Positions 2-51,630 of a stretch of DNA of 51,630 nt are shown here, in pieces. How positions within the stretch are numbered: position 1 is the first letter of the stretch; each line of letters starts with the position of its first letter. The notes under the pieces are model-generated. The model saw only the letters and a program-made list of their open reading frames with translations, had not been told where the DNA came from and did not search any database. A program made the translations under genes and the position numbers. The stretch comes from a virus: IMG/VR virus record IMGVR_UViG_3300045885_000315, positions 1 to 51,630 of that record, one strand, 5' to 3'.

Positions 2-109
2 CCCAAGCGCGGATCCTATCCGCACATCGTCCAGGGAGACATCCAGGAGGTTCCAGCCGGCGTCAGGCTTGCCCACGGTGGTCCGCTGGCGCTCTGGCCT
101 ATCGCATGA
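2..109 (+). CDS. 3' end of an unidentified gene (partial)
   Basis: The last 35 codons of a gene cut by the left edge, read in frame 2, ending in a TGA that overlaps the ATG of the next gene (ATGA). The visible tail ends in ...LALWPIA and is too short to assign. Its position next to a glycosyltransferase suggests it belongs to the glycan island that also occupies the right end of the window. That is inference. It does not join in frame to the partial methyltransferase at 51493. Confidence 0.6.
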   Translation, partial: PKRGSYPHIVQGDIQEVPAGVRLAHGGPLALWPIA

Positions 110-750
110 AACTGGTTACAGGGATCATGCCCACGCGAGGCAGGACTGAATATGCCACGCTGGCCGTGGCCTGCTTCTTGGCGCAGGACTACGAGAACAA
201 GCGGCTCGTGATCCTCGACGATGCCGACGATCCGAGCTTCCCGAACGGGTTCAGTGGAAAGTCGATTTCCTACACGGCGCTAAAGAAACGCATGCAGATC
301 GGAGCAAAGCGAAACATCGCCTGCGAGCTCGCCTTCCGGTCCGATTACATCGCGCACTTCGATAGTGACGACTGGAGCGCGCCGCGGCGATTAACCCAGC
401 AGATCGACCTCCTCGAGCGCACCGGCAAGGCCGTGACGGGTTACAACTCGCTGCTGTTTTACGAGCCCAAGACCGGCGGATGGGCGCGATGGACTGGAGG
501 CCAGGAGAACTCCGCGGGAACGAGCCTGGTCTACACGCGCGAGTGGTGGTCCACGCATCGGTTTAAGGACCAGAACTGCGGAGAGGACCACCTGTTTCGC
601 GATGCCGCCAAAGACGGTGAGGCCTTTATCGCCGTACCAGGCGAACAGATGATGGTCGCACGCGCGCACCCGGGCAACACCAGCAAGAAGCATCTTTCCA
701 ACTACCGACCCGTCTCTGTTCAAGACGTGCCGGCGGATTTTCCTTTGTAA
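106..750 (+). CDS. Family 2-like glycosyltransferase (GT-A fold)
   Basis: A 214-residue soluble enzyme expected to move a sugar from a nucleotide-sugar donor to an acceptor in the cytoplasm. Visible GT-A landmarks are the N-terminal MPTRGR strand and loop, FLAQDY, the ILDD donor-binding strand, a KRN motif, the metal-binding DSDDW motif at about residues 86-90, and a late CGEDHLF motif that would supply the catalytic acid. The length is that of a bare catalytic domain with no membrane helix. It overlaps its upstream neighbour by ATGA and the head-tail joining gene by TAATG, so it is translated within the structural operon. Donor and acceptor are unknown; virion or host glycans are the main options. 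Confidence 0.85.
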   Translation: MKLVTGIMPTRGRTEYATLAVACFLAQDYENKRLVILDDADDPSFPNGFSGKSISYTALKKRMQIGAKRNIACELAFRSDYIAHFDSDDWSAPRRLTQQIDLLERTGKAVTGYNSLLFYEPKTGGWARWTGGQENSAGTSLVYTREWWSTHRFKDQNCGEDHLFRDAAKDGEAFIAVPGEQMMVARAHPGNTSKKHLSNYRPVSVQDVPADFPL

Positions 751-1130
751 TGGGCTTCCGTGGTGGGCCTGGGACATTGAAACGCAGGATCACGTTCCAG
801 CGCTTTCCGGATCCTGAAGACGAAGCCTTGAAGGATAGCCTCGGGGAAGTGACCGGGGAGCCGACAGACGACTTCACGTGCTTTGCTGCTTATCAACCGA
901 TCGGCGGGAAGGAGTTTCCGGTCTCGGAGAAGCGCCATGCGGAAACGACTGGCAGATTCTGGATCCGGTACCGGCGGGACATCAATCCGCGGACGCTACC
1001 GGCAACGCACCGGATCTCTTACGTCGAGAATGCATCGGTGACGTCGCCTGTCACCAGGACTTACGACATCAGGGCCGTGGCAAGTTTCGGTTTCGTCGAG
1101 ATGCACATCGAGGTCTCCGAAATCCGGTGA
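750..1130 (+). CDS. Head-tail joining (head closure) protein
   Basis: A 126-residue protein resembling the SPP1 gp16 / phage head-tail adaptor family (PF05521-like), which closes the head and makes the interface for the tail. The diagnostic second half is present: a basic strand with RFWIRYR, then a TYDIRAV segment and a hydrophobic C-terminal strand. The start ATG shares a base with the stop of the glycosyltransferase (TAATG). In typical HK97-like phages this gene directly follows the gp6-like connector. Here the connector is at 48223, near the far end of the window, and the glycan island lies between them. Confidence 0.75.
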   Translation: MGFRGGPGTLKRRITFQRFPDPEDEALKDSLGEVTGEPTDDFTCFAAYQPIGGKEFPVSEKRHAETTGRFWIRYRRDINPRTLPATHRISYVENASVTSPVTRTYDIRAVASFGFVEMHIEVSEIR

Positions 1131-6210: not shown

Positions 6211-6641
6211 TGGCATCCCGCTGGTCTATTACTGAGCCCGCCAGCATCAATGACATGACTCAACTCCCACGCGCGGGACGCTGGGAATCTCAAACGCTTG
6301 GACAGCAGCATGAGTCCATCGTGAATGAGACACAGCGCGGTGTCCGCTACGGATCGCATCTGTTCAAGCGGCAGCTGCTTCCCGGGATCATCTTCGAATT
6401 CCCGAGAGAGTTGGCCAGTCAGTATCAGGCGATTTCCGATGCGACCTTCGGCCGAGTCAAGCCGTTCTATTTCGTGCTAGATGAAAACCATTTCGAAGAC
6501 CTGCTCTATCTCCGGTTGGACGAGGACAGCTTCCTTCCGGATGTCTTTGGTCCAGGCGCTTTCGAAGGGACTATGCAGCAGTGGTTCCGCTGGGTCATGC
6601 GGGCCTCTGCTGAAGTCGCAGACCAACCCTTACTAGACTGA
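6210..6641 (+). CDS. Putative distal tail protein
   Basis: A 143-residue protein between the tape measure and the tail-tip proteins, joined to both by one-base overlaps (TAATG upstream and TGATG downstream). It has no membrane segment. The middle part, with FKRQLLPGIIFEF and PFYFVLDEN, reads as a compact beta-rich structural protein. Its position is that of lambda gpM or a distal tail protein that seeds the tail tip. No family could be recognised with certainty, so the role rests on gene order. Confidence 0.55.
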   Translation: MASRWSITEPASINDMTQLPRAGRWESQTLGQQHESIVNETQRGVRYGSHLFKRQLLPGIIFEFPRELASQYQAISDATFGRVKPFYFVLDENHFEDLLYLRLDEDSFLPDVFGPGAFEGTMQQWFRWVMRASAEVADQPLLD

Positions 6642-7684
6642 TGATCACGATACCCGGCGGCGCCTACATTCCAGCGGTTCCCATGACCGCGTTTTCCGCA
6701 CCGAACCTGATTGACGGTGCAACCATGGATGCATCGGGGGAGAAGTGGGCCATTATTTTCCGAGTGCCCCGCTCAGGAACTCTCGACCTGATGGAGTTTC
6801 AAATCGGCACCGTCGGCAACAACCCCGACAACGGACTGAAGGTATCTTTCCAGGACCTCGATGCCAACGGAGTTCCAGACGGTACGCCCGATCAGTATCG
6901 CCTGCTCGCCGGACCTTTCACGTCGAACACGTGGATCACACCGGGGCTGATGACCGCCGACGGAACGAACGGCGGAACCAAGCGCGCGGTAACTGCAGGT
7001 CAGATGCTCGCCTTCGTCTGCGAGTTCGAAAGCTTCACGGCGGGCGATAGCTACAACCCAAAATTTTTGGACATCGATGCCACGTTCGGCGGGATTCTCG
7101 GAGATAACACTAGAGCCAGATTCCAGTCTGCGGCGTGGACTAAACTTCCCGGAAACGGATGTTGCGCGCTGAAGTACGCGACCGACGGGTATGTCCCGAT
7201 TGCCGATGACATTTTCCCGATCCTCACCTTGACGACGGCTCAGTTCGGAATGGACTCCGCCAATGACGAGTTTGCGCTGAGGTTTCAACTTCCGGCATCC
7301 GTCCAGTGTGATGGCGCGTGGCTCTGGGGCGAGATTGATGCTGACGCCGACGTGGTGATTTACGACAGCAACGGGACCACCGTACTTGGTAGCGCCTCGA
7401 TTGATGCGAGCGCACGGCCGGGCACGGGTCCGTCCAAGCATCATGCCCGCTGGCCTGCCGTGACGCTACAGGCGAATACAACCTACCGGGTATCGCTCAA
7501 GGCCACAACGATAATCGAGCAAACTCTTCTTTACAACTGGACGGCGAATTCCGCAGGCCTGATGGCAGCGGCGCATGGCGGGGTCGAATGGTATCGCAGC
7601 AAGCGTGCAGACGGCGGCTCGTGGACTGACGAAAACACGATTCGTCCATTTATGGGAATTCACATTATCGGGTTGGATTCCTGA
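6641..7684 (+). CDS. Minor tail / tail-tip beta-sandwich protein, copy 1 of a duplication
   Basis: A 347-residue protein, predicted to be beta-rich and part of the tail tip. It is clearly homologous to the first 345 residues of the next gene. Shared segments include NNPDNGL, SFQDLD, DGTNGGTKR, VTAGQ, FTAGDS, DEFALRFQ/DEYALRFQ, WTANSAGLMAA and GGVEW followed by RSKRAD. Each half seems to hold two related beta-sandwich units, possibly carbohydrate-binding. The stop overlaps the ATG of the larger paralogue (TGATG). A free copy beside a copy fused to the tail hub suggests tandem duplication followed by divergence. Confidence 0.7.
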   Translation: MITIPGGAYIPAVPMTAFSAPNLIDGATMDASGEKWAIIFRVPRSGTLDLMEFQIGTVGNNPDNGLKVSFQDLDANGVPDGTPDQYRLLAGPFTSNTWITPGLMTADGTNGGTKRAVTAGQMLAFVCEFESFTAGDSYNPKFLDIDATFGGILGDNTRARFQSAAWTKLPGNGCCALKYATDGYVPIADDIFPILTLTTAQFGMDSANDEFALRFQLPASVQCDGAWLWGEIDADADVVIYDSNGTTVLGSASIDASARPGTGPSKHHARWPAVTLQANTTYRVSLKATTIIEQTLLYNWTANSAGLMAAAHGGVEWYRSKRADGGSWTDENTIRPFMGIHIIGLDS

Positions 7685-10600
7685 TGGCTCTCACAGTTTT
7701 ACCGGGTGGGTTTTACTACCCGTCACCGTTTCATCCGGCGGCGGCAATTCCGGCGAGCGTTTCGTCTACGCTGAATGCTTCGGGCGAAAAATACGCATGG
7801 GCCTTCCGAGTGCCCAAAAGTGGCGTTTTAGAGACCTGCGAATTCCGCATCGGCACCGTCAGCAACAACCCCGACAACGGATTGCGGATCTCCTTTCAGG
7901 ACCTTGATTCCTCCGGGAACCCGGATGGAACGCAGGACCAATACCGTGACATTGCAGGGCCGTTCTCCTCGAACACCTGGATTACTCCGGGAATCATGTC
8001 CCACGATGGGACCAATGGGGGAACAAAGCGCACTGTTACGGCGGGACAGGTCCTCGCGGTGGTCCTCGAATTCACCAGTTTCACGGCAGGGGATTCGATC
8101 AACATCGATGTGCTCGACCATCCCTCAGCGCCGGGCGGAATCACGGGTTTCGATCTCATTGATTACCTGTTCGAATCAGCGGCATGGTCGAAGAGTCTCA
8201 ATGCGGGCTATCTGGCGCTCAAGTATGAGACCGACGGCTACGAACCCGTGGCACAAGACATGGTGCCGGCTCTGGCGTTGTCCAGTGTCACCTACAACAC
8301 GGGTTCCGCCTCCGACGAATACGCGCTGCGCTTTCAGGTTCCTTGCGACATGCAGGTTGATGGAGGCTGGGTCCGTGCGGACATCGACAACGACGCGGAA
8401 CTTGTGCTCTATGACGGGGACGGCACTACGGTTCTGGGTTCGGCAACCTTCGACGCCAGCCAGCGCACCCTGACCACAGCGCACAACCATAACGGCAACT
8501 TTGCACCCGTCACGCTGATCGCCGGGGTGACCTACAGGCTTTCGCTGAAGCCGACTACAGGCAGTTCGATCATTTTGTACGGATGGACCGCGAATTCCGC
8601 AGGACTCATGGCGGCTGCTACAGGCGGCGTGGAGTGGCACAGGTCCAAGCGCGCCGATGCGGGATCGTGGACCGATGAAAGCACCGAGCGGCCCTGGATG
8701 GGAATTCATGTCTCGGCGGTTCCTTCAGGCACGGACGTCTCGGGACTCAACGAGAGCGCGGAAGGCGCGGATACGGCAGGCTATACCCTGACCGATTGCT
8801 TTGTTGGGATCGCTCAAGAATCTGCCGATGCGCTCGACCGTGCCAACTATGACCTCGTGCCGACGTTTGCCATGACAGTCACTGAGGCTGCGGATGCGGT
8901 GGACCGCGTCGAATACGACCTGCTAACCCCGCTGGCGTATACGGTTCAGGAAAGCGCGGAGGGCCTCGATACGGCCATCGGCGCCTCTCAGGTGCCCTAC
9001 GGTCCCTCCATGGCCATCCTGACGCACATCTACGACTATTTTGCCGGGTCGGACCCGTGGGCGTTTTCTTCCGGGCATCTGGTGAATTCCCACGACCATC
9101 TCGGGAAGGTCTTGAGTTGGGGCAGTAGCACGCGCGAAATTCCGATACCGGCAGGGCCTCCGCGCCTGGGGCGGATCGAATTGGAGTTTGACGACACGCC
9201 TGATCCTGTTACAGGGGTCCAATTTTTCCGCTCACAATTCGGCGCGCGCACACCGAAAGGGAAACGCGTGGACCTGCTGATTGGTCCCGTCGGCGGCAAG
9301 GAATCCCTGTTCCAGATTCCGGCAGCCGGAACGATCGAGCACGCGATATTCCCGCCGGGAAAGATGCGGCTTGTCATTCTAGATGACCGCTACAAGTGGC
9401 TGCAGAAGCCACTGCCGTTGCTGATCAACAAGACGAACTTCCCGAACCTGCCGGTAGATACTCAGGAAGCGTTTGCACCGTTCGTTTTCGGGGAAGTCAA
9501 CAGCGACGACTTCGGCGGTCAGGGCGCCATCGCCTTGGTGCATGTCGATACGGTTCAGCATCGCTATTGCGCGGCATGTCACATTGTCGAATCTGTCGCA
9601 GTCTTCAGGCGCGCGTCCGACGAGGACGAGTTCACCGAAGTTGTCTCGGGCTGGTCTCTGGTCTACGAGGACTTCGAAATCGGCGGACTCACTTACACGT
9701 TTTCATTCGTGGAATTCGACGTGGATCAGGATGGCGCCGAGATCCGAGCGGATGTCTCGGGCTGGCCGTTCGGCGGCGGCTGGGGCACCGTACCGCCGAC
9801 AATCGGCGTGCAGTCCAACGTCATTGAGCACGCCATCACGTTTCTGTATTTCGTTGACGCACTACACAAGGGCTTTACGCGCCCGCACGACCAGGCACTC
9901 TCAAGATTTGACCTTCCGTCATTCGCTACAGTGCGACAGCAGATTGAGGACTTAGGGTACATCTCGGGATACGTCATCGCCGAGCAGATGACTCCGGAAG
10001 TCGTACTTACTCAACTGTTCTCCACGTTCATGATTCACTGGTTCCCGAACCGGCAGGACAAAACCAAGGTCGTCAAGACGCCGCTGGATACGCCTTCTGA
10101 CGCACCAGTGTTCGGAGACTTCCACTCGATCCTGCTGAAGTCGGAGCAGGCGGAACTGGCCGTGGATACACGGAACCGCATTCTCTACCGCTACGGACGG
10201 CTTTACACAGGTTCAGAGGAATGGGGCGGACAGGGGACACACGACAACCTGCCGGACCAGGCCGCGCTAACGGACTCGGACGGGGAACCCATCATCGAAC
10301 CGGAGAGCGTCGATTTCCATGCCTGCCGGGATGCAGGCACTATCGCATTTTTGGCCGCCGAGTGGGCAGCATGGCGCGATCAGGACGCACACCGCTTTCG
10401 GTTTCAGCTTCATATGCCGACGAAGTTAACGCAGGTGGATCTGGCGAAAGACTTTCTGGTGACGCACTACGGCGGGCTGAACGCTGGCGGCTGGAACCGC
10501 GAGCGCTTCTTTCCCTTCAAAGTCACCGACCTTTACGAGCCTCTTCGCTTCGAAATCGAGGCCATCCGGTTAGTTTCACCGACACTCCCAGACAACGCAC

Positions 10601-11904
10601 TGCAGTCCATTGGCGATTTCCAGTGGAACGCTCTGGTTGGACCCTGGTATTTCGCCGGGACCCGGACCGTCTATATGGGCTTCAGCGATAACCGCGTCTC
10701 CGGACGAGGTCTCGTCATTCTCAAGCCGGGCGATGTTCCGGCCGATGATGGCGTGTTCCCGCTGCTGGCGAATCCTATTGGCTCGTTTCAGTACGTCCGC
10801 GACGGAAACAAGATCCACGTCGCAGCTCAGGAATTCATTTCAGGGCGCGTGTCCTACTCGTGCTTCGACATGGCCGCGGATCTTTGGGAAGTCGTCAACC
10901 AGACGGTGCTGACCTCAAACTCGCACGGGGACGCTGGCGTGTCGATCTGCATCCGTCAGCCGTCCGGGCGTCCACACATTGTCTATCAAGGGGACCGTGA
11001 AACCACGGACGGGAGCCTGGGTCAGTTCGGCGCAGGCACGTGGAAGCGCATGAAGTGCAAGACGCTGGTTGATGGTGTGTGGTCCACCGAAATCGATATT
11101 CGGGATACCGACTCCGAGCGCGCAGCCCTCTGGTTCGCCATTTACGGAGATCCTCTCTACTACGGCAGCCTCCATATCAACGTTGGCCGTGCAATTGCCG
11201 AAGAGAATAACGCCGTTCGCTATGTCTTCGCGAGAGAGGAACCCGCCGACGTTGCCAGCACGCAGGACCTCCAGACACAGATACTCACCGAAGACGATGC
11301 TCTTTCGGAGTGCTATGAGTTTAAATTCACGGGCGGCCTGGGTTACACGGCTCAATTCGCCTATGGCGACCCTTGCACGTTCGAATACGACGGAACGTTC
11401 TACACAGCCGTTCCCGTTGGGCTGCTGTTCGCTCAGATGCTCTGCATTTGGGAATCGACGACTCTGGCAGGGCCGCCAACGTTCACGATTCCATTGTCCA
11501 CTGCGGAAATACAGCCGGATACGTATGGAACCAAGAGCCCGCCGATGACTGTCCGCTGGTTCAATAACAAACTTTACGTGGTCATCGGGACTCGCGTCAC
11601 CGGTGGTGAGTGGGCAGCACTGAAGACAATTAGCCCGCCATTTACGACAGCAGAGCCCGCCTACAGCGGAGCCACGGCACGAGACGAGCAAGTCGGCCCA
11701 ACGTGGCCCAATTCGGAATATTCCCGGCATGGCTGCGAGTTCGCGAAGGTTCGCGGCCAGGACATCCTGTTCAAGGTAACGGCCGGGACTTTCGGAGTGC
11801 CGAATACTTCGGGCAAGCACATCTTCGAGCGCATCAATCTGACGACGGACGTACCAGGCGACAACGGTTACACCTTGGCGGAATGGCTCACGGATAACAC
11901 TTAA
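7684..11904 (+). CDS. Large tail-tip / hub protein with duplicated N-terminal domain
   Basis: A 1406-residue protein, the largest in the window, and probably the central tail-tip or receptor-contacting protein. Residues 1-345 repeat the preceding gene. Residues about 350-433 contain four short repeats with ESAE/ESAD, DR/DT and YDL. Residues about 434-965 look like a phage hub domain, with IPIPAGPPRLGRIEL and several conserved aromatic and acidic segments. Residues about 970-1406 are rich in WYF, VYMGFSDNR-type strands and resemble a beta-propeller or sugar-binding platform. No signal peptide is present. Domain names beyond the duplication are inferred from position and composition. Confidence 0.7.
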   Translation: MALTVLPGGFYYPSPFHPAAAIPASVSSTLNASGEKYAWAFRVPKSGVLETCEFRIGTVSNNPDNGLRISFQDLDSSGNPDGTQDQYRDIAGPFSSNTWITPGIMSHDGTNGGTKRTVTAGQVLAVVLEFTSFTAGDSINIDVLDHPSAPGGITGFDLIDYLFESAAWSKSLNAGYLALKYETDGYEPVAQDMVPALALSSVTYNTGSASDEYALRFQVPCDMQVDGGWVRADIDNDAELVLYDGDGTTVLGSATFDASQRTLTTAHNHNGNFAPVTLIAGVTYRLSLKPTTGSSIILYGWTANSAGLMAAATGGVEWHRSKRADAGSWTDESTERPWMGIHVSAVPSGTDVSGLNESAEGADTAGYTLTDCFVGIAQESADALDRANYDLVPTFAMTVTEAADAVDRVEYDLLTPLAYTVQESAEGLDTAIGASQVPYGPSMAILTHIYDYFAGSDPWAFSSGHLVNSHDHLGKVLSWGSSTREIPIPAGPPRLGRIELEFDDTPDPVTGVQFFRSQFGARTPKGKRVDLLIGPVGGKESLFQIPAAGTIEHAIFPPGKMRLVILDDRYKWLQKPLPLLINKTNFPNLPVDTQEAFAPFVFGEVNSDDFGGQGAIALVHVDTVQHRYCAACHIVESVAVFRRASDEDEFTEVVSGWSLVYEDFEIGGLTYTFSFVEFDVDQDGAEIRADVSGWPFGGGWGTVPPTIGVQSNVIEHAITFLYFVDALHKGFTRPHDQALSRFDLPSFATVRQQIEDLGYISGYVIAEQMTPEVVLTQLFSTFMIHWFPNRQDKTKVVKTPLDTPSDAPVFGDFHSILLKSEQAELAVDTRNRILYRYGRLYTGSEEWGGQGTHDNLPDQAALTDSDGEPIIEPESVDFHACRDAGTIAFLAAEWAAWRDQDAHRFRFQLHMPTKLTQVDLAKDFLVTHYGGLNAGGWNRERFFPFKVTDLYEPLRFEIEAIRLVSPTLPDNALQSIGDFQWNALVGPWYFAGTRTVYMGFSDNRVSGRGLVILKPGDVPADDGVFPLLANPIGSFQYVRDGNKIHVAAQEFISGRVSYSCFDMAADLWEVVNQTVLTSNSHGDAGVSICIRQPSGRPHIVYQGDRETTDGSLGQFGAGTWKRMKCKTLVDGVWSTEIDIRDTDSERAALWFAIYGDPLYYGSLHINVGRAIAEENNAVRYVFAREEPADVASTQDLQTQILTEDDALSECYEFKFTGGLGYTAQFAYGDPCTFEYDGTFYTAVPVGLLFAQMLCIWESTTLAGPPTFTIPLSTAEIQPDTYGTKSPPMTVRWFNNKLYVVIGTRVTGGEWAALKTISPPFTTAEPAYSGATARDEQVGPTWPNSEYSRHGCEFAKVRGQDILFKVTAGTFGVPNTSGKHIFERINLTTDVPGDNGYTLAEWLTDNT
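8731..8986 (+). repeat. Four 21-24-residue repeats inside the tail-tip gene
   Basis: This stretch encodes four tandem units beginning NESAEGADTAG, QESADALDRANYDL, TEAADAVDRVEYDL and QESAEGLDTA. They link the duplicated beta domain to the hub part and resemble a short extendable spacer. The DNA copies have diverged, so this is an old protein repeat and not a recent expansion. Confidence 0.7.
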
Positions 11905-12917: not shown

Positions 12918-14338
12918 ACTTTCTCATAAGGCTTCTGATCATTCTGTTTCTGGCAGCTCCTGCCTTCGCCGGCGTGCACACCGCAGCGAGCTGTAACCAG
13001 CCCGACATTGATGCAACGATCAGCGCCGTCAAGGCGGATGGCCAGCCCCTACCGATCATGGTCGTGCCGATGGGCAACTGCCCGACGACGGTGATAAGCG
13101 CTCCGAAGGCGATCATCCTTCAGGGCGCTGGAAAAGGCCTCACGACGGTAGCAACGATCAACATCGGCAATACCGGCGCGCGCGCCACTGGCTTCACGGT
13201 TACGAATGCGGCGGGCGGACCGGAGTCTCCTCTGGTGCTCGCAGAGGGACAGGGATGGCGCTTTGATCATTCGCAGTGCGTCAACGTCAAGGGTGTTGGT
13301 CCGCAGGGCGCGAACTCTTCGAATTGCGTCTTTGCCACAGGGCAGGTTTCCGGACAGCATCCGACCGGTCTGATTGACCACGTCGAAGCGATCGATGCCA
13401 GGTTCATGATTTTCGGGAACGGGCGCAATGACTGGTCGGAGCCATCGACGGTCGGCGTTGCCGGCGCCAGCGGCGTCGTCACCATAGAAGACTCCTCGAT
13501 CACATCGACTCTCTACGGGAACTGCTTTGACCTGATGCTCACTGCCAGGATCACTTTCCGTAAGAACAAGACACGGGGTTGCTGGTACGAAGCGCATTCG
13601 AAGCAGGTCGATTCCAGGAACGGCCGGAGCTGGGAGATCTACGACAACATCATCGAACTGGATCCGTCGCTGCCCGGATCTTGGATTGCGATGTTTCTCC
13701 GTGGCGGGACAGGCGTTGTCTTTAACAACACCTTTGTGGGGCAGGGGAGCGGAGCTCACCTGGTCGGAATCGATAACGGTTCGTTTCCGATAACAGCCTA
13801 TCCGATGACCGACCAGATCGGCCGCGGACGCGATCTCCCGGATGCGACCCAGCAATTGGAGCCGGCTTACTTCTGGAACAACAAACGGGCGGACGGCACT
13901 GCCGTCAACCCGGTCGTGCTCAATGGCCATGACTCGTTGATCCAGGTCAATCGGGATTACTTCTTATCGGCACGGCCGAACTACACGCCGACACCTTACC
14001 CGCATCCATTGCAGGGCGGATCCATTCCGATTCCGCCACAGCCGCAGCCTGAACCGAATCAGCCGCCCGTGCTCACGTTCAGGGCACCGTCGAACCTTCA
14101 GGTCATCACGGTGAAGAACTTCAAGATATCCGTCGAGAGCACCGACGACACCGGCGTCACGTGGCAGGAACTCTCCATCAACGGGCAAGTGGTCAAAGCC
14201 GCTGCGACAGCCACCATGACGTATTCGTGGAATACCGCGCCGTATAAGGGCAAGGGCCCCGTGGTGATCAAGGCCGTCGCCAGAGATGCGGACGGCTCGT
14301 CATCTGAACAGACAAGAACTGTGACCGTACGCAAATGA
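12914..14338 (+). CDS. Exported right-handed beta-helix protein with Ig-like domain
   Basis: A 474-residue protein with a textbook Sec signal peptide: MNFLIRLLIILFLAAPAFA, with cleavage expected before GVH. The body (residues about 25-350) has the strand-turn pattern of pectate-lyase-like beta-helices, with repeated segments such as ITFRKNKTRG, WEIYDNIIEL and GVVFNNTFVG. After a Pro-rich linker (about 358-372), residues about 374-474 form a bacterial Ig-like domain (NQPPVLTFRAPSN...AVARDADGSSSEQT). Family members bind or cut polysaccharides. A cleavable signal peptide is unusual for a virion protein, so secretion from the infected or lysogenic host is inferred. Neighbour overlaps (ATGA on both sides) place it in the late tail operon. 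Confidence 0.75.
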   Translation: MNFLIRLLIILFLAAPAFAGVHTAASCNQPDIDATISAVKADGQPLPIMVVPMGNCPTTVISAPKAIILQGAGKGLTTVATINIGNTGARATGFTVTNAAGGPESPLVLAEGQGWRFDHSQCVNVKGVGPQGANSSNCVFATGQVSGQHPTGLIDHVEAIDARFMIFGNGRNDWSEPSTVGVAGASGVVTIEDSSITSTLYGNCFDLMLTARITFRKNKTRGCWYEAHSKQVDSRNGRSWEIYDNIIELDPSLPGSWIAMFLRGGTGVVFNNTFVGQGSGAHLVGIDNGSFPITAYPMTDQIGRGRDLPDATQQLEPAYFWNNKRADGTAVNPVVLNGHDSLIQVNRDYFLSARPNYTPTPYPHPLQGGSIPIPPQPQPEPNQPPVLTFRAPSNLQVITVKNFKISVESTDDTGVTWQELSINGQVVKAAATATMTYSWNTAPYKGKGPVVIKAVARDADGSSSEQTRTVTVRK

Positions 14339-14364
14339 CTGACAAAAACCCGAGGAAGTTTCAC

Positions 14365-16647
14365 ATGAGATTAAAGCGAGGCCTGATCGTTGCCGCTGTT
14401 CTATTTTTTGCCGTTCTGCCGTCGTTCGCCCAGCAGCTGGGATGGAGCGAGATCCCGAACACGAAGATCGGCGGCAACGACACCTCCTGCAGCGGTAACT
14501 GCGGTGTTGCCATCAACTACCCGCAGTCCCGCAACGTCATTGCCGCTTGGGGTGGTGGTGCCTTCGATACACAGCGCAACCGAATGATTGTCTGGGGTGG
14601 TGGTCATAACGACTATTCCGGCAATGAGATCTATGCTGTGGATTTCGATGGCACCGCCGCTCCGCTGCGCTTGACCAACAACACCAACCCCGGCGCCTGC
14701 GGAACACCCTCCTGCGATGGAGGCGCAACACCGAATGCCCGGCACACGTATCACAACATGACGTACGTGCCGACATCGGATTCGCTCTTCGTATTCGGTG
14801 GTGGGTTGTCTGGTCCCGGTGTGACCTCCTACAACGACGCATGGCAGTTCAATTTCACCACGTCGGCGTGGACGCACCTGAATCCGATCTCGACGGGAAT
14901 GTTCGACACGCCTGTCTATTACATCTATTACGTCGAATACTACGCGCCGATGGATGCAGTGCTGATTGTCGGGCAATACGGGCTCTATCGATACAACCTG
15001 AACACTCGCACCATGACCACGCTGAAATCGACAGGTGGTGGAATTGGATATGCCTACGGCGCGATTGATCCGATCAAAAACAAACTGTTCATCTTCGAGC
15101 AGTCCTTCACCAATTTCATGTGGATCGACCTGACCGGTGCGGATGGTTATGCCTACCATTCCTTCACACCAACCGGGGCGGCGATGCCCGGCAGCTGGCC
15201 CGGTTGGGCCTACGATCCGGTCTCCGGGGATCTGGTTGGATGGTCCGGCGGCAGTACGGTCTACCGGTTCAACACGACCACCCACAATGTCACCGCGACA
15301 TCGTACTCTGGAGGTCCCGGACCGCGTCAGGCCAACGGAACCTACGGACGTTGGCAATACTCGCCATCTCTGGGTGCCTTCACTTTGGTGAATTCGTTCG
15401 ACGAGAATGCCTTCGTCTTCCGGTTGAATGGTGGGAGTCCTCCTCCGACAGATACCACGGCGCCCACGGTTCCCACTGGGCTCACGGCTTCACCCGTGTC
15501 TCAAACTCAGATCAATCTGGCATGGACAGCATCAACAGACAATATCGCTGTCACTGGATACAAGGTCTTCAGAAACGCAGCCGAGATCGCGACAACCGCA
15601 TCGGTCGCCTACTCGGCGACGGGTCTGGCGCCGGCAACGACCTATGTGTTTACAGTCGCCGCCTATGATGCTGCCAACAATATCTCCGCGCAATCGACGG
15701 CCGTGTCGGCAACTACCCAGTCGCCGCCTCCACCGTCAGGCCCAGTTACGGTTGGTCCGGGAAAGCAATACCCGACGTTGTCCGCAGCCATCGCCGCCGT
15801 CCCTTCCGACAGTGTGATCGAGTGCGATGCCGGCATCTACCCGAACGATTCGCTGGTCACCACCAAGAACCTGACGATTCGCGGTGTTGGCGGAAAGTGC
15901 CATCTGAAGTGGGGAAGCGGGGACTACCGGACCAACACGGCGATGATCCCTAACGGCAAGGCCCTGTTTGTGACCGGCGGAAATGTCACCCTTGAAAATC
16001 TGGAATTCTCCGGCGCGAAGGTCTCTGGTGAAAACGGTGCCGGGATCCGCTATGAAGGTGGAAACCTCACGATCCGCAACAGCTCGTTTCACGACAACGA
16101 AAACGGGATCATGGGGCAGGCTGGAATGAGCAACACGCTCATTATCGAATACTCTGCCTTCGAGCGTAACGGGTTCTGTGGTGCCGGCGGATGTGCCCAT
16201 AACGTCTACATCGGCGCAATGGGAAAGCTGGTTTTCCGGTACAACAGGAGCACCGATCCCACGCAGGGTCATACACTCAAGAGCCGTGCCCGAATCAACG
16301 AAGTCATCGGAAACACCTTGAGCACGCTGAACGGTGACGGTAGTTACGAAGCGGAGTTCCCGAATGGCGGTGAAGTCTACCTGATCGATAACATCATCGA
16401 GCAGGGTGCCAACACCGGAAACTCGACGCTGGTTCGCTGGGGTGCCGAGGGTGCGACAAACCCGAATCCAAAGCTCACTGTCGTTGGAAACACGCTCTAT
16501 AACTGGCGCCTGAATGGATCAACGTTTGTGCAGGTCAGTGGTTCTCCCGCGCCTGCGCTCTCAATCAAGAACAACTTCTTTGTTGGGCCTGGTACGCAAC
16601 TGACCGGCGGTTCGACCGACCTGAGCACCAACATCACACTGCCGTGA
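14365..16647 (+). CDS. Exported Kelch - fibronectin III - beta-helix protein
   Basis: About 760 residues. The start at 14365 is preferred because it follows a ribosome site (gaggaag) and begins a clean signal peptide (MRLKRGLIVAAVLFFAVLP, cut after SFA or SFAQ). An in-frame ATG at 14335 overlaps the upstream stop. Domains in order, counted from 14365: a Kelch-type beta-propeller at about 20-360 (MIVWGGGHNDYSG, LFVFGGGL), a fibronectin III domain at about 370-455 (VPTGLTASP, INLAWTASTDN, GYKVFRN), a Pro-rich linker, then a right-handed beta-helix at about 465-760 (YPTLSAAIAAVP, NLTIRGVGG). This is the architecture of a secreted carbohydrate-binding or carbohydrate-cutting protein. Its substrate is unknown. 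Confidence 0.75.
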   Translation: MRLKRGLIVAAVLFFAVLPSFAQQLGWSEIPNTKIGGNDTSCSGNCGVAINYPQSRNVIAAWGGGAFDTQRNRMIVWGGGHNDYSGNEIYAVDFDGTAAPLRLTNNTNPGACGTPSCDGGATPNARHTYHNMTYVPTSDSLFVFGGGLSGPGVTSYNDAWQFNFTTSAWTHLNPISTGMFDTPVYYIYYVEYYAPMDAVLIVGQYGLYRYNLNTRTMTTLKSTGGGIGYAYGAIDPIKNKLFIFEQSFTNFMWIDLTGADGYAYHSFTPTGAAMPGSWPGWAYDPVSGDLVGWSGGSTVYRFNTTTHNVTATSYSGGPGPRQANGTYGRWQYSPSLGAFTLVNSFDENAFVFRLNGGSPPPTDTTAPTVPTGLTASPVSQTQINLAWTASTDNIAVTGYKVFRNAAEIATTASVAYSATGLAPATTYVFTVAAYDAANNISAQSTAVSATTQSPPPPSGPVTVGPGKQYPTLSAAIAAVPSDSVIECDAGIYPNDSLVTTKNLTIRGVGGKCHLKWGSGDYRTNTAMIPNGKALFVTGGNVTLENLEFSGAKVSGENGAGIRYEGGNLTIRNSSFHDNENGIMGQAGMSNTLIIEYSAFERNGFCGAGGCAHNVYIGAMGKLVFRYNRSTDPTQGHTLKSRARINEVIGNTLSTLNGDGSYEAEFPNGGEVYLIDNIIEQGANTGNSTLVRWGAEGATNPNPKLTVVGNTLYNWRLNGSTFVQVSGSPAPALSIKNNFFVGPGTQLTGGSTDLSTNITLP

Positions 16648-46819: not shown

Positions 46820-48106
46820 ATGAATGCACCCACTTTTCAGGAAATCAAATCCGCCATTGAGGGCATGAATTCTGCCTTCGACGTGTACAAGCAGACCAAC
46901 GAGCAGCGACTCGAGGCCGTCAAGAGCGGCAACGAAGCGCTGGCGAAAGAACTCGACGGCAAGCTCAAGAAGATCGACGCCGACATCCAGAAGTTCAGCG
47001 ATCTGAAGACGCTGCTCGAGACCGAGCAGAAGTTGATCCGCGAGCGCATCGAAGAACTGGAGTCGCGCGCCTCGACGCCCGGAAAAACCACGCTGGAAGT
47101 GACGCAGGACGAGCAGAAAGAAGCCTTCATCGGATGGATCCGCAGCAAGGGCGCTTCGATGGAACACGAGCAGAAGATGCGCCAGTGTGAGAAGAAACTC
47201 ATCGACATGAAGGACATCACGGTGGGTACACCTTCGGCCGGCGGCTACGCTCTGCCGAAGACGATCGTCCAGGCGATTATGGATCTGGAAATCAAGCTCT
47301 CGCCTGTCCGTCGCCTGATCCCTGCGGTTCAGGTCGGGACCACGGACTTCCACGAATTGATCGGACTACGAGGGGCGAGTTCTGGCTGGGTTGGTGAAAC
47401 CGGAACACGAACGGCGACCAACACGCCGACCTTGCGCGACATTCTTCCGACCTTCGGAGAGTTGTATGCCTACCCGCAGGTTTCGGAGTGGTCGCTCGAC
47501 GACCTCGGGTTCAATGTCGAGAACTGGCTGACCAAGAACATCGCCGACGAGTTCTCGTATCAGGAAGGCCTCGCCGTGATCAGCGGAAACGGAACCAACA
47601 AGCCGACAGGCATGTTGAACACCCCGCCGACGGCAGTCGCCGACTGGCCGATCTCCCGTGCCGCGGCGGTGTATCAATACGTCAACAACACGACCTCGCC
47701 GACCGCGCTCGACCCGGACAAGTTGATCGACCTGGTCTATGCGCTGAACTCTGCATATCGCTCGGGATCCTCTTACGTCATGAACTCGCTGACGACGGGC
47801 GGAGTCCGTAAGCTCAAGGACCAGAACAACCAGTATCTCTGGCAGCCTTCCGTGCAGGCCGGCCAGCCGAACATGCTCAACGGCTATCCCGTCGAAACAT
47901 GGGAAGACCTCGACGACGTTGCGCAGAACAAGTTTCCGGTCGCATTCGGCAATTTCCCGAAGGGCTACCTCCTTGTCGACCGGATCGGTATGCGGATCAC
48001 GCGCGACAATGTCACCACTCCCGGTTATGTGAAGTTCTACGTCCGGCGCCGTGAAGGTGGCATCGTTCTCGACAACAACGCCATCAAGTGGATCCGCACG
48101 ATCTAG
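46820..48106 (+). CDS. Major capsid protein (HK97 fold)
   Basis: A 428-residue protein. Residues about 1-130 are a coiled-coil delta domain (QKLIRERIEELESRAS) expected to be cut off by the protease. The mature part begins near GTPSAGGYALPKTIV, and has FHELIGLRGASSGWVGETG, then TFGELYAYPQVSEWSLDD and a late GNFPKGYLLVDRIGMRI. All are usual for HK97 gp5-type capsids. The ATG has a weak ribosome site (gagga). A second hairpin follows the stop. Confidence 0.95.
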   Translation: MNAPTFQEIKSAIEGMNSAFDVYKQTNEQRLEAVKSGNEALAKELDGKLKKIDADIQKFSDLKTLLETEQKLIRERIEELESRASTPGKTTLEVTQDEQKEAFIGWIRSKGASMEHEQKMRQCEKKLIDMKDITVGTPSAGGYALPKTIVQAIMDLEIKLSPVRRLIPAVQVGTTDFHELIGLRGASSGWVGETGTRTATNTPTLRDILPTFGELYAYPQVSEWSLDDLGFNVENWLTKNIADEFSYQEGLAVISGNGTNKPTGMLNTPPTAVADWPISRAAAVYQYVNNTTSPTALDPDKLIDLVYALNSAYRSGSSYVMNSLTTGGVRKLKDQNNQYLWQPSVQAGQPNMLNGYPVETWEDLDDVAQNKFPVAFGNFPKGYLLVDRIGMRITRDNVTTPGYVKFYVRRREGGIVLDNNAIKWIRTI

Positions 48107-48222: not shown

Positions 48223-48861
48223 TTGTACGAGCACCCGAAAATAAATCCCCTACGCCTCTCCGTTGATCCGATCCCACTCGACGACCTGGACGTGGGAACG
48301 CTGATGGCCCACGCCAACATCGATCACGACGAGTGGGAAATGCTGCTGGTGAAATACCTTCCGGCGGCAGTGGAGAATTTCGAGAACGACACGCATCGGA
48401 CCGCTATACGTCGCGCTCATCGCTGGGTGCTCGATCGGTTTCCCTATTCGCCGGGTCATATCCGTCTGCCTCGTGGCAAAACGACCAGTGTCGAGAGCAT
48501 CGCCTATAGCCTGAATGGCGAGACCGTCCTGCTGACCGGTCCATCGCTGAGCCCTTCGGGTTCGGACTTTCAGGAGGACCTGAACGGCGAAGACGGCGGG
48601 GTGATCATGCCGCCACGTGGACAGTCTTGGCCTTCAGCCGACTCCGATGTCCCCGCGCCGGTAGTGATCGCCTTCAACGCCGGATACGATTGGTCGGACC
48701 TGCCGTTCGGCATCCTGCAGGCGATTCTCTTTAAGGCGACAGACCACGTCGAATTCAGGGGCACCGCGGATATACCGCGCAATCAGGACGTCAATCAGCG
48801 CGCATGGGACCGGCTAATCAGCCCATACGTGCTGACGCGGACCTATGGAATATGCGATTGA
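48223..48861 (+). CDS. Head-tail connector (gp6-like adaptor)
   Basis: A 212-residue protein with probable TTG start. It matches the phage gp6/phiE125 gp8-type adaptor: HANIDHDEWEMLLVKYLPAAVE, DRFPYSPGHIRLPRGKTTSVESIAYSL, then a late WDRLISPYVLTRTY. It forms the ring under the portal. The length is normal. The methyltransferase at 48852 overlaps its end. The next structural partner (head closure) is not here but at 750. Confidence 0.82.
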   Translation: MYEHPKINPLRLSVDPIPLDDLDVGTLMAHANIDHDEWEMLLVKYLPAAVENFENDTHRTAIRRAHRWVLDRFPYSPGHIRLPRGKTTSVESIAYSLNGETVLLTGPSLSPSGSDFQEDLNGEDGGVIMPPRGQSWPSADSDVPAPVVIAFNAGYDWSDLPFGILQAILFKATDHVEFRGTADIPRNQDVNQRAWDRLISPYVLTRTYGICD

Positions 48862-49310
48862 ATCTCGGTGCCTGCGACCGGAAGGTTCCAGGCTTCCTGT
48901 CTGTGGATATTGTTCCGCCGGCTGACTTCGTTGCCGACCTTTCGAAGCCGTGGCCCTGGCCGGACTCCAGCGTCGATGAGGTCGCGGCCTTCGACATCAT
49001 CGAGCACCTGCCCGACAAGCGGCACACGATGAATGAACTCTGGCGGGTTCTAAAGAACGGGGCGCGCGCATCGATTGGAGTGCCAACGGTTCGAGGCGTC
49101 GGCAGCGTGTGCGACCCAACGCACGTGTCGTACTGGTCCGCGGGCGACTTCGAGTATTACGAAAAGGGCAACTTCGCGCGGGAGAGATTCCGGAGTTACT
49201 ACGGGATCGTCGCGGACTTCAGGATCGTTTCGCTCTCTCAGGACATGTACAAGAACCGATTCGACGAGGAAGTTTGGAAAGCGTCAGTCGTCCTCGAGGC
49301 TGTAAAGTGA
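48852..49310 (+). CDS. SAM-dependent methyltransferase (class I)
   Basis: A 152-residue enzyme starting at MRLNLGACDRK (an in-frame ATG further up is less likely). It has the usual SAM motif I (LNLGACDRK), then VDIVPPADFVADLSKPWPWPDSSVD and AAFDIIEHLPDKRHTMNELWRVLKNG, a type seen in sugar and small-molecule methyltransferases near glycosyltransferases. It overlaps the connector stop, so it is translated within the head operon. The most likely substrate is a sugar of the glycan island. Confidence 0.82.
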   Translation: MRLNLGACDRKVPGFLSVDIVPPADFVADLSKPWPWPDSSVDEVAAFDIIEHLPDKRHTMNELWRVLKNGARASIGVPTVRGVGSVCDPTHVSYWSAGDFEYYEKGNFARERFRSYYGIVADFRIVSLSQDMYKNRFDEEVWKASVVLEAVK

Positions 49311-49492
49311 GCACCGCTGCCGATATCGCCGACGTTCATAACGCGGAATCGAAACTTCGACTCAAGCCGCACCTAGCAACTCAGTCTCTGTCTTTCACTG
49401 TGGTGGGCGAGGGGCCTCTACGCGTCACGCTCGAGGAGTTGTTGACAGCAGAGACCGTCGAGACGCTCAGAAAGCTGGGCATTCTGCAATGA
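49307..49492 (+). CDS. Small protein inside the glycan island
   Basis: A 61-residue protein with GTG start overlapping the methyltransferase stop (GTGA), and its own stop overlapping the glycosyltransferase ATG (ATGA). It has SKLRLKPHLATQSLSFTVVGEG, then LEELLTAETVETLRKLGIL. Small proteins of this shape are seen in phage head regions, but no role is known. It may be a leftover part of the connector operon. Confidence 0.55.
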   Translation: MSTAADIADVHNAESKLRLKPHLATQSLSFTVVGEGPLRVTLEELLTAETVETLRKLGILQ

Positions 49493-50172
49493 GTAATCTT
49501 GCTGTCGTCATCCCTTCCAGGACGCTCTCCAACATGAAACCATGCGTCGAGGCGGTTCAAAAGCACGAGCCGGAGGCGCAGATCTTTGTCGTCGACGACG
49601 GGATCGTCGATCGGCCGGTGCCGAGCCAGGGGATGATGTACATCAACGGCATATCCCCTTTCTGCTTCGCCAGGAACTGTAACCTCGGGATTCTTATGGC
49701 GCACGATAGAGATGTCGTTCTGCTCAACGATGACGCGCTCCTGGAGACGCCCGGCGGGTTCTCGCTGATGCAGGGGGTCGCCGAAGAGAATCCCAGCATT
49801 GGGGTGATTTCCTCCACAACGAACGTCGCCGGAAATCTGAACCAGCAACCTAAGGGCGTTGGATTGCGGTTCGAGTTGCACCGGAGCATCGCTTTCGTCT
49901 GCGTGCTTATCCCGCGGCGAACGATCCTCCTGCTGGGCGGACTGGATGAGCGATTCGGCGGCACCCTGCCCGACGGGCGCAGGATCTACGGCTGGGAGGA
50001 CAACGACTATGTGCGGCGGGTTCGAAGCGCAGGCCTGCGCGTGGCTATCCACGATGGCTGCTATGTCGACCATGGCAGCTTAAGGAGCACATTCCGCGGC
50101 GATCCCCGATCGGCAGGAGATATTTCCGCAGGTGCCGAAGTCTACCGGGCGAAGTGGGGCGATCTTAAGTGA
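49489..50172 (+). CDS. Family 2-like glycosyltransferase
   Basis: A 227-residue GT-A enzyme: AVVIPSRTLSN at the start, FVVDDG, FARNCNLGI, then VVLLNDDALL with the metal-binding acids, GGLDERFGG, and YGWEDNDYVRRVRSAG with the catalytic acid. The order is that of rhamnosyl- or general GT2 transferases. No membrane helix. It overlaps both neighbours (ATGA, GTGA). Sugar and acceptor cannot be given. It differs from the other GT2 at 106, so the island makes at least two linkages. Confidence 0.85.
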   Translation: MSNLAVVIPSRTLSNMKPCVEAVQKHEPEAQIFVVDDGIVDRPVPSQGMMYINGISPFCFARNCNLGILMAHDRDVVLLNDDALLETPGGFSLMQGVAEENPSIGVISSTTNVAGNLNQQPKGVGLRFELHRSIAFVCVLIPRRTILLLGGLDERFGGTLPDGRRIYGWEDNDYVRRVRSAGLRVAIHDGCYVDHGSLRSTFRGDPRSAGDISAGAEVYRAKWGDLK

Positions 50173-50705
50173 AGCTTTTCCTCAGTCCGCACAACGACGA
50201 TGAGACGCTTTTCGGTGCGTTTACTATTCTGCGCGAGCGTCCGATGGTTGTCGTCTGCCTCGACTCTTACGTCCAGGTCAATCGTGGCTCCCAGAACTGC
50301 AATGCCGATGCGCGCAGGCTGGAAACCATCGCGGCCATGAAGATTCTGAATCCGGACCGGCCGCCCGTCTTCCTTGGGTTTCGCGATGATTCAATCTACA
50401 GCCTTGAGTTGGAGGATGCGCTCAAGCAGTTCGGTCAGCCTGAAATGGTTTACGCGCCTGCAATCGAGACCGGTGGCCATGAACAGCACAACCTTATCGG
50501 AGCTCTCGCTCGTCGCGTGTTCAAAAATGGCCAGCATTACATGACCTACACCAAGGCAGGGAAGTCCACAGGTCGACCGGTGCCGTACGAGCCGGAATGG
50601 CCGCTGCTTAAGCTTCGCGCGCTGGCCTGCTACCAGTCGCAGATTACGCACCCGGCAAATGCCGAGCACTTTCTTCGGGATCAGTTCGAATACACGCAAT
50701 GCTGA
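50169..50705 (+). CDS. PIG-L (LmbE-like) N-deacetylase
   Basis: A 178-residue enzyme with GTG start. It has the zinc site of the PIG-L family: SPHNDDETL (His8, Asp10/11, the latter catalytic), and a later GGHEQHNLIGALA with His104 and His107. The Arg-Glu pair of the second motif (RRLETIAAMKIL) is also visible. Family members remove N-acetyl groups, most often from GlcNAc-containing lipids or glycans. In this island it points to amino sugars in the final product. Confidence 0.85.
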   Translation: MKLFLSPHNDDETLFGAFTILRERPMVVVCLDSYVQVNRGSQNCNADARRLETIAAMKILNPDRPPVFLGFRDDSIYSLELEDALKQFGQPEMVYAPAIETGGHEQHNLIGALARRVFKNGQHYMTYTKAGKSTGRPVPYEPEWPLLKLRALACYQSQITHPANAEHFLRDQFEYTQC

Positions 50706-51496
50706 AAAAGGTTTTCGTCCAGTGCCTGTTTGGCCAGCCGTTCCCGTGGACGGATGAGTACTTTGAGAACTTCCGAAGGCTAGCGCCTTGCGGCTGGTAC
50801 CTGCGAGTGTTCACGCCGAATCCGCTGCCGGAGGCCGAGAACATCGACGTCATCCCCATGACGCTCGCGGAGTATGACGGTCTCGTCGAGAAGCATTGTG
50901 GCGTTCAGGTGAAAAACTTCCTGAACAGCCGCGGGGTTCCCAATAAGCTGACGAGTGATCACTATCCGGCGCAAGGCTGGATTTTTCAGGACTTCCTGAA
51001 GGACGCCGACTATGTGGGGATCACCAACTGGGATTGCTGCTACGGCAAGCTTTCGAAGTGGCTGCCCGACTCCGAACTACAGAATTACGAAATCTGGAGC
51101 GATGACCCTTGCGGTTTCAACGGGATCTTTACCTTGTTCGAAAATACGGAGCCCGCGCTCAATCTGTTCCGTGAAGTCGAGAACTGGAAGCACCATTTCA
51201 CAGTTCACGAGCCCTGCGCGTTCGACGAGATCCGATTCAGCGAGATTCTGAGAAAGGCCAGCGCCGACGGCCGTATCGCCTGGGGACGTCCGGACCACTT
51301 CCCGTTCCATAGCTATGACAGGCTTGTGATGCACCAGCCGAAGCCGCACCTGTACTTCGAGGAAGACGGGGCGCTGATCGAGTGGTACGAGGACCGAACG
51401 CATCCGCCGTCGACAAAGAGGCACTACGGGCGGGAGATTCCACTGTTCCACTTCTCCAAGACGAAGCGATGGCCGATCGGATCGAGGCCGGAATGA
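50699..51496 (+). CDS. Glycosyltransferase-like protein (possibly DUF6625)
   Basis: A 265-residue protein that seems to have a GT-A type fold without GT2 signatures. A hydrophobic strand (KKVFVQCLFGQPFPW) opens it, a helical section (KLTSDHYPAQGWIFQDFLKD) follows, and YVGITNWDCCYGKL could hold the metal-binding acid. WGRPDHFPFHSY and PLFHFSKTKRWPIG lie near the end. The pattern resembles DUF6625-type glycosyltransferases, but the match is by eye. It follows the deacetylase with an overlap and precedes a methyltransferase. Confidence 0.6.
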   Translation: MLKKVFVQCLFGQPFPWTDEYFENFRRLAPCGWYLRVFTPNPLPEAENIDVIPMTLAEYDGLVEKHCGVQVKNFLNSRGVPNKLTSDHYPAQGWIFQDFLKDADYVGITNWDCCYGKLSKWLPDSELQNYEIWSDDPCGFNGIFTLFENTEPALNLFREVENWKHHFTVHEPCAFDEIRFSEILRKASADGRIAWGRPDHFPFHSYDRLVMHQPKPHLYFEEDGALIEWYEDRTHPPSTKRHYGREIPLFHFSKTKRWPIGSRPE

Positions 51497-51630
51497 GCGC
51501 GCTGGTCGACCAGTCTTACTGGAACGCGCGTTATCGCGCAGGCCACGGCAGCGGTGCCGGGTCGAACGATGTCGCGTGTACCAGAAAGGCTCGCTGGCTG
51601 ACCGGACTTCCCGGTATTCGAACAATCACT
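51493..51630 (+). CDS. Methyltransferase (partial, cut by the window end)
   Basis: The first 46 codons of a protein beginning MSALVDQSYWNARYRAGHG, then SGAGSNDVACTRKARWL. That opening (YW-x-RY ... SG-x-GS) is common in class I SAM methyltransferases associated with sugars. The SAM-binding motif lies beyond the edge, so this is tentative. The ATG overlaps the stop of the previous gene (ATGA). It would be the second methyltransferase of the island. Confidence 0.6.
   Translation, partial: MSALVDQSYWNARYRAGHGSGAGSNDVACTRKARWLTGLPGIRTIT

Follow-up and report, generated by a model that had tools for sequence, protein, structure and literature searches.

A candidate virion glycosylation locus in the head-neck operon of an uncultivated tailed phage

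To our knowledge, glycosylation of the virion is known from only a few cases among bacterial viruses. In the mycobacteriophage Che8 and its relatives, glycosyltransferases (GTs) are phage-encoded, and capsid and tail tube subunits carry glycans (Freeman et al. 2023, doi 10.1016/j.chom.2023.05.028, as cited in PMC12619734 and PMC11256854). In the chlorovirus PBCV-1, virus-encoded GTs and methyltransferases (A064R, A061L) build and O-methylate the capsid glycan (PMC9614988). Here we describe a run of sugar-modifying genes, referred to as the island, in a single IMG/VR record (IMGVR_UViG_3300045885_000315) whose whole length of 51,630 bases was analysed and is called the window. The island shares phage-encoded GTs with the mycobacteriophage systems. 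It shares virus-encoded GTs together with methyltransferases with PBCV-1, a eukaryotic virus, and this likeness does not extend to any shown common ancestry. About 90 non-redundant IMG/VR contigs of uncultivated phages share a core of three GTs with variable tailoring genes, almost always beside head, neck or tail genes. We consider it probable that the island serves to glycosylate the virion of a tailed phage, with the glycan carried on a virion protein. These observations suggest that the coating of phage particles with sugars of the phage's own making is widespread.

Genes of the island and the ends of the record

The island lies between a head-tail connector gene and a head completion gene and is interrupted by the ends of the record. 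The genes are as follows.

46820..48106, + strand: major capsid protein (MCP) of the HK97 type, upstream anchor (PF05065, 1.3e-65)
48223..48861, + strand: head-tail connector/adaptor, left flank (phrog_442, 1.5e-9; PF05135, 0.01, below cut-off)
48852..49310, + strand: MT1, class I S-adenosylmethionine (SAM) methyltransferase, start at 48852 (PF08241, 1.5e-6; phrog_6636, 7.9e-11; LNLGACDR as motif I)
49307..49492, + strand: open reading frame (ORF) of 61 residues with a GTG start (no Pfam or PHROG match)
49489..50172, + strand: GT2a, GT-A glycosyltransferase, core enzyme (phrog_2456, 1e-6; Pfam GT2, 0.054, below cut-off; NDD and YGWEDND motifs, GT7C-like)
50169..50705, + strand: predicted sugar N-deacetylase of the PIG-L/LmbE type (PF02585, 2.4e-8; PHNDDE...GHxxH)
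50699..51496, + strand: DUF6625 protein, probable GT-A fold glycosyltransferase (PF20330, 1.5e-18)
51493..51630, + strand: first 46 codons of an ORF cut by the record end (ATGA overlap with the DUF6625 stop)
2..109, + strand: C-terminus of GT_RIRNE, third core GT, truncated by the record start and ending in a stop codon at 107-109 (homology to locus L053)
106..750, + strand: GT2b, family 2 glycosyltransferase, core enzyme (PF00535, 3e-11)
750..1130, + strand: head completion/closure protein (HCP), right flank (PF05521, Phage_HCP, 3.2e-12; phrog_25)

Tail genes follow HCP. From the connector to HCP, the junction overlaps are ATGCGATTGA, GTGA, ATGA, GTGA, ATGCTGA, ATGA, ATGA and TAATG, mostly in the ATGA/GTGA manner, and this overlap of stop and start codons indicates translational coupling. 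The junction letters and the Pfam and PHROG matches bear out the coordinates, the strand and the tight coupling described in an earlier, sequence-only reading of this DNA. Its gene list was incomplete, as it overlooked the 61-residue ORF and the third GT (GT_RIRNE). The second methyltransferase that it listed is not established: only 46 residues are present (51493-51630), and this short query has no match in Pfam, in PHROG or among the locus proteins.

MT1 scores 29.2 bits against the Methyltransf_11 cut-off of 21.2, which places it among the class I SAM methyltransferases, and GT2b scores 44 bits against the Pfam GT2 cut-off of 23.3, as expected of a family 2 GT. For GT2a, the same family label had been proposed; its motifs fit a GT-A, GT2-like enzyme, but its 13.9 bits fall below the Pfam GT2 cut-off of 23.3 and leave it outside that Pfam family. 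The GT-A motifs of GT2a (DDG, NDD and the DxD of YGWEDND) are invariant in an alignment of 8 homologues, and its profile matches include chondroitin synthase (9e-5) and beta4GalT7 (0.006). The GT_RIRNE piece is 73% identical over 33 residues to its counterpart in L053 (E 8e-11), with more than 30 further matches of the same family.

The PIG-L protein scores 35 bits against the PF02585 cut-off of 28.2 and belongs to that family. Its residues H8, D10, D11 and H107, which make up the metal-binding H/D/H set and the catalytic D, are invariant in 12 sequences. The AlphaFold2 model has a predicted local distance difference test (pLDDT) score of 94.3, and Foldseek matches it to diacetylchitobiose deacetylase (2.2e-7), MshB and BshB. 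The top 25 Foldseek matches are all of the LmbE-like fold, including the hydratase GalB; because this fold includes a hydratase, we infer rather than assign the sugar N-deacetylase activity that the model suggests. The DUF6625 protein scores 68 bits against a cut-off of 27, and its AlphaFold2 model (pLDDT 73.4, moderate) matches GT-A enzymes at a TM-score of ~0.4, so that it is probably a glycosyltransferase of the GT-A fold. A copy of the 61-residue ORF, 49% identical, adjoins PIG-L in two other loci (L004 and L008).

The record is classed as linear and has no end repeats. Its genes run once around the usual order, from HCP through tail, replication, terminase and head to the connector, and bases 2-109 encode the C-terminus of GT_RIRNE, a GT family found in the same island of relatives. 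For these two reasons, both record ends likely belong to one island, broken by an unassembled stretch between base 51630 and base 1. This stretch may perhaps be ~1-2.5 kb long, a rough figure guessed by analogy with L005 and similar loci. A circular record is not supported: end repeats are absent, and in a direct fusion of the two ends (base 51630 with base 1) the last ORF would read on into sequence that has no homology in that frame. The idea that the island spans the window edge is thus retained as regards one island, on GT_RIRNE homology and gene order, but not as regards a circle. The GC content of the island (58-61%, versus 57.8% elsewhere in the record) resembles that of the rest and gives no sign of recent import.

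Two other regions of the window are recorded here. Adjacent tail-region ORFs at 6641-7684 and 7684-11904 have a similar N-terminal stretch (ASGEK..FRVP.SG) and no Pfam match. Downstream of the tail genes, 14335-16647 encodes a protein that appears to have a signal peptide and matches kelch, fibronectin III and beta-helix families.

Recurrence, placement and exchange of the cassette

Related loci in IMG/VR were selected by similarity to GT2a or PIG-L, and MT1 did not serve as a selector. The GT2a alignment query gave 208 contigs, of which 80 were kept, and PIG-L alone gave 23 loci; 109 loci were mapped with our own hidden Markov models and collapsed to 88 groups. As single-sequence queries of IMG/VR, the MCP found 2 distant loci and the DUF6625 protein found none. 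GT2a is present in 69 of the 88 groups, and automatic mapping identified head, neck or tail genes in 67 of these 69. By PHROGs, terminase, portal or baseplate neighbours are present in L057 and L098, where the automatic call is one weak gene each, and in the two remaining groups, L066 and L087. An independent query with GT_RIRNE added 28 groups to these; GT2a is present in 23 of them, and 23 have head, neck or tail genes as neighbours.

Mere nearness to virion genes is weak evidence, because IMG/VR contains only contigs selected as viral and a large part of any phage genome consists of virion genes. The stronger fact is bracketing of the island between head and neck or tail genes, which is seen in 29 complete cases. 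In 35 groups the connector follows GT2a; in 16, as in the window, the connector precedes it. The slots used are MCP/connector, connector/HCP, HCP/tail completion protein, tail completion protein/tape measure protein, and large terminase subunit (TerL)/portal. A further slot is seen in L131, L148 and L155, where the island follows a gene of the tail completion or p3067 type and so lies closer to the gene for the tape measure protein. Relatives were also searched for the same genes outside any head or tail context; the claim of sugar genes within the virion operon was not refuted, with dozens of loci beside head, neck or tail genes.

GT2b, GT2a and GT_RIRNE form the constant core, and the other genes vary. 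MT1 homologues occur in 40 of the 88 groups, PIG-L in 25 (partly owing to selection), MT2 in 11 and DUF6625 in 7. GT_YLAHN (20 groups) and GT_IPTRG (18 groups) are called GTs from the look of their sequences and their position, and the copies in L005 have no Pfam match. Other variable partners are a DegT aminotransferase (1.9e-78), an RmlD-methyltransferase fusion, an NAD epimerase, a YdjC deacetylase and a TOD1_MUCI70 GT. This gene content is that of a pathway for tailored sugars, and the proposal of such a pathway in a virion operon gains strength from its recurrence beside head, neck or tail genes in dozens of phages.

An alternative is that head-neck boundaries simply tolerate late accessory genes, sugar genes being common cargo without a virion target. 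The use of several slots and the presence of HNH-like and helicase ORFs in some islands are consistent with this explanation. We regard it as quite unlikely, as the three-GT core is kept across most loci, unrelated cargo is rarer, and the most frequent identifiable accessory clusters are glycan enzymes.

Some islands contain additional ORFs. HNH-like ORFs, recognised by eye, are found in L004 (8595-9086), L008, L042, L043, L045, L047 and L088 and are perhaps homing endonucleases that aid cassette movement. A small protein with the look of an Ntn-hydrolase (proteasome-like; NTN family) lies beside GT2a in L005 (8667-9131) and L028.

Terminase is usually among the better conserved phage genes. 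Between the window and L031, however, MT1 and GT2a are 71% and 57% identical, versus 23% for TerL and 18% for the MCP. MT1 is 75% identical in L039, and PIG-L is 60-64% identical in L033 and L052, where TerL is 26-27% identical. Overall, cassette proteins are 50-75% identical where TerL, portal and MCP are 15-35% identical. Because cassette identity is far above that of a gene usually well kept, transfer of the cassette from one phage lineage to another is probable.

Outside IMG/VR, tblastn (E 1e-5) against 50,697 GenBank phage records gave no match for GT2a, GT2b, PIG-L or DUF6625 and distant matches (30-37%) for GT_RIRNE and MT1; megablast of 44-51.6 kb against GenBank phages gave no match. 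The gene set, earlier called unusual, is so by comparison with GenBank phages but is recurrent among uncultivated ones. No paper describing a glycan locus of this kind was found in the open literature searched. A search of 84,980 GTDB species genomes with one peptide pattern gave 5 weak matches to this form of PIG-L. As to the host, a Gemmatimonadota sample gave only weak, probably generic GT matches in 77 of 298 (best 1e-14). One Gemmatimonadetes contig from a metagenome-assembled genome (L106, JAHFCU010000051.1), binned as bacterial, carries PIG-L, DUF6625, GT_IPTRG, GT_YLAHN and GT_RIRNE together and is perhaps a phage contig within that assembly. Some secreted proteins have an Acidobacteria-like look, which is an impression only.

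Possible targets of the sugar enzymes

The island combines phage-encoded, soluble GTs with linkage to virion genes, as expected of a virion glycosylation system. By a hydropathy window test, its proteins nearly lack membrane segments (weak ones in 7 of 66 GT2a proteins, 0-1 in the others). The polyprenyl-phosphate sugar transferase PF02397 is absent from the 49 records searched, with a positive control. The near lack of membrane segments and the absence of PF02397 disfavour a lipid-linked, exported glycan.

These two results also bear on the possibility that the enzymes alter or cap a host polysaccharide, as in superinfection exclusion or serotype conversion, with the late operon serving for timing only. 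Phage GTs with a role at the host surface are known from Gtr systems, tailoring by PIG-L enzymes and methyltransferases occurs in surface glycans too, and distant GT2a relatives (25-29%) are carried on bacterial plasmids. However, Gtr-type systems use the membrane proteins GtrA and GtrB. With almost no membrane segments among the island proteins, the membrane flippase and bactoprenol transferase genes expected of a Gtr cassette are not seen, GtrA/GtrB models not having been run, and no flippase or polymerase was noted in the islands. As the initiating transferase PF02397 is also missing from the 49 records and the cassette sits in a virion operon, host-surface modification, which the sequence-only reading had offered as an alternative, now appears unlikely.

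Phage DNA could also be the target, with the GTs, deacetylase and methyltransferases decorating modified bases. Virus-encoded GTs that hypermodify DNA have been reported (Pyle et al. 2024, as cited in PMC12619734). However, PF00303 (thymidylate synthase/hydroxymethylase-type) was found in 0 of the 49 records, which are fragments, with a positive control; Tet_JBP was likewise found in 0 of 49, where the control also gave no match. Among the window genes scanned, an N6/N4 DNA methylase is the only candidate, and the locus lies with structural rather than replication genes. We consider DNA hypermodification very improbable.

For the favoured explanation, glycosylation of the virion, the following course may be envisaged. 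The head-neck operon would be expressed late, together with a soluble cytoplasmic enzyme set. GT2b as the putative initiating enzyme, GT2a and GT_RIRNE, aided by the DUF6625 protein, would use host nucleotide sugars to assemble a short glycan straight onto one of the virion proteins, most likely one of the head or neck. PIG-L would take the acetyl group off a residue of the N-acetylglucosamine type and leave a charged amino sugar, and MT1, possibly with others encoded in the missing stretch, would methylate the sugar. With three GTs constant and interior genes swapped between phages, the locus may determine a particle serotype. We infer these substrates, the order of steps, the initiator and the virion as acceptor, as well as a benefit to the phage, from the gene set and its placement.

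GT2b divergence tracks that of portal and MCP (Mantel r 0.60 and 0.47, p 0.0005), and does so more closely than the divergence of GT2a or MT1. Such tracking would fit recognition of a head protein by GT2b, but it is explained just as well if GT2b is simply linked to the head module. The MCP was considered as acceptor on these grounds and was not singled out. In L005, a collagen-like GPTGPTG repeat protein with a signal peptide is encoded at 13567-15165, with the connector on one side and HCP on the other; collagen repeats rich in Thr could serve as glycan acceptors.

Several points weigh against glycosylation of the virion. The GT2b-MCP correlation disappears once portal is controlled for (r 0.07, p 0.30). 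Because several slots are used, the acceptor cannot be read off the neighbouring gene, and a late-operon placement would also suit enzymes with another late target. The majority of the contigs are fragments. Selection by GT2a or PIG-L inflates the identities of these two proteins; MT1 was not a selector.

Comparison with known systems

Tentatively, the locus may be to phages what an O-antigen locus is to bacteria. Many unrelated tailed phages would keep it in their head-neck operon and pass it among themselves, the three GTs staying constant while the tailoring genes are swapped, so that their particles bear varied methylated, deacetylated glycans. If true, sugar-coated particles would be common among environmental phages and overlooked because such phages are uncultured, which raises the questions of what such a coat protects the particle from and on which virion protein it sits.

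The window PIG-L has the same fold and catalytic and metal-binding residues as known PIG-L/LmbE deacetylases (diacetylchitobiose deacetylase, MshB, BshB and teicoplanin deacetylase). It is shorter (178 residues), and PHNDDE replaces the usual HPDDE. The DUF6625 model matches the structure of a PBCV-1 capsid GT weakly, at the level of the GT-A fold only. In the mangrove-soil phage GX15bay (MK557849), several GT and methyltransferase genes lie in a row upstream of the terminase gene, one of the GTs being 31% identical to GT_RIRNE of L005; this cluster differs from the island in slot, in its low identity and in having no PIG-L annotated. In the F1 mycobacteriophage Maravista, the GT genes lie near the 3' end of the genome, according to PMC11256854, whereas the window island lies between head and neck genes, and its GT2a, GT2b and PIG-L lack tblastn matches in the GenBank phage collection. 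The locus is real and widespread; its gene families were not found in the GenBank phages searched, its kind is known in principle from the systems above, and its arrangement is new.

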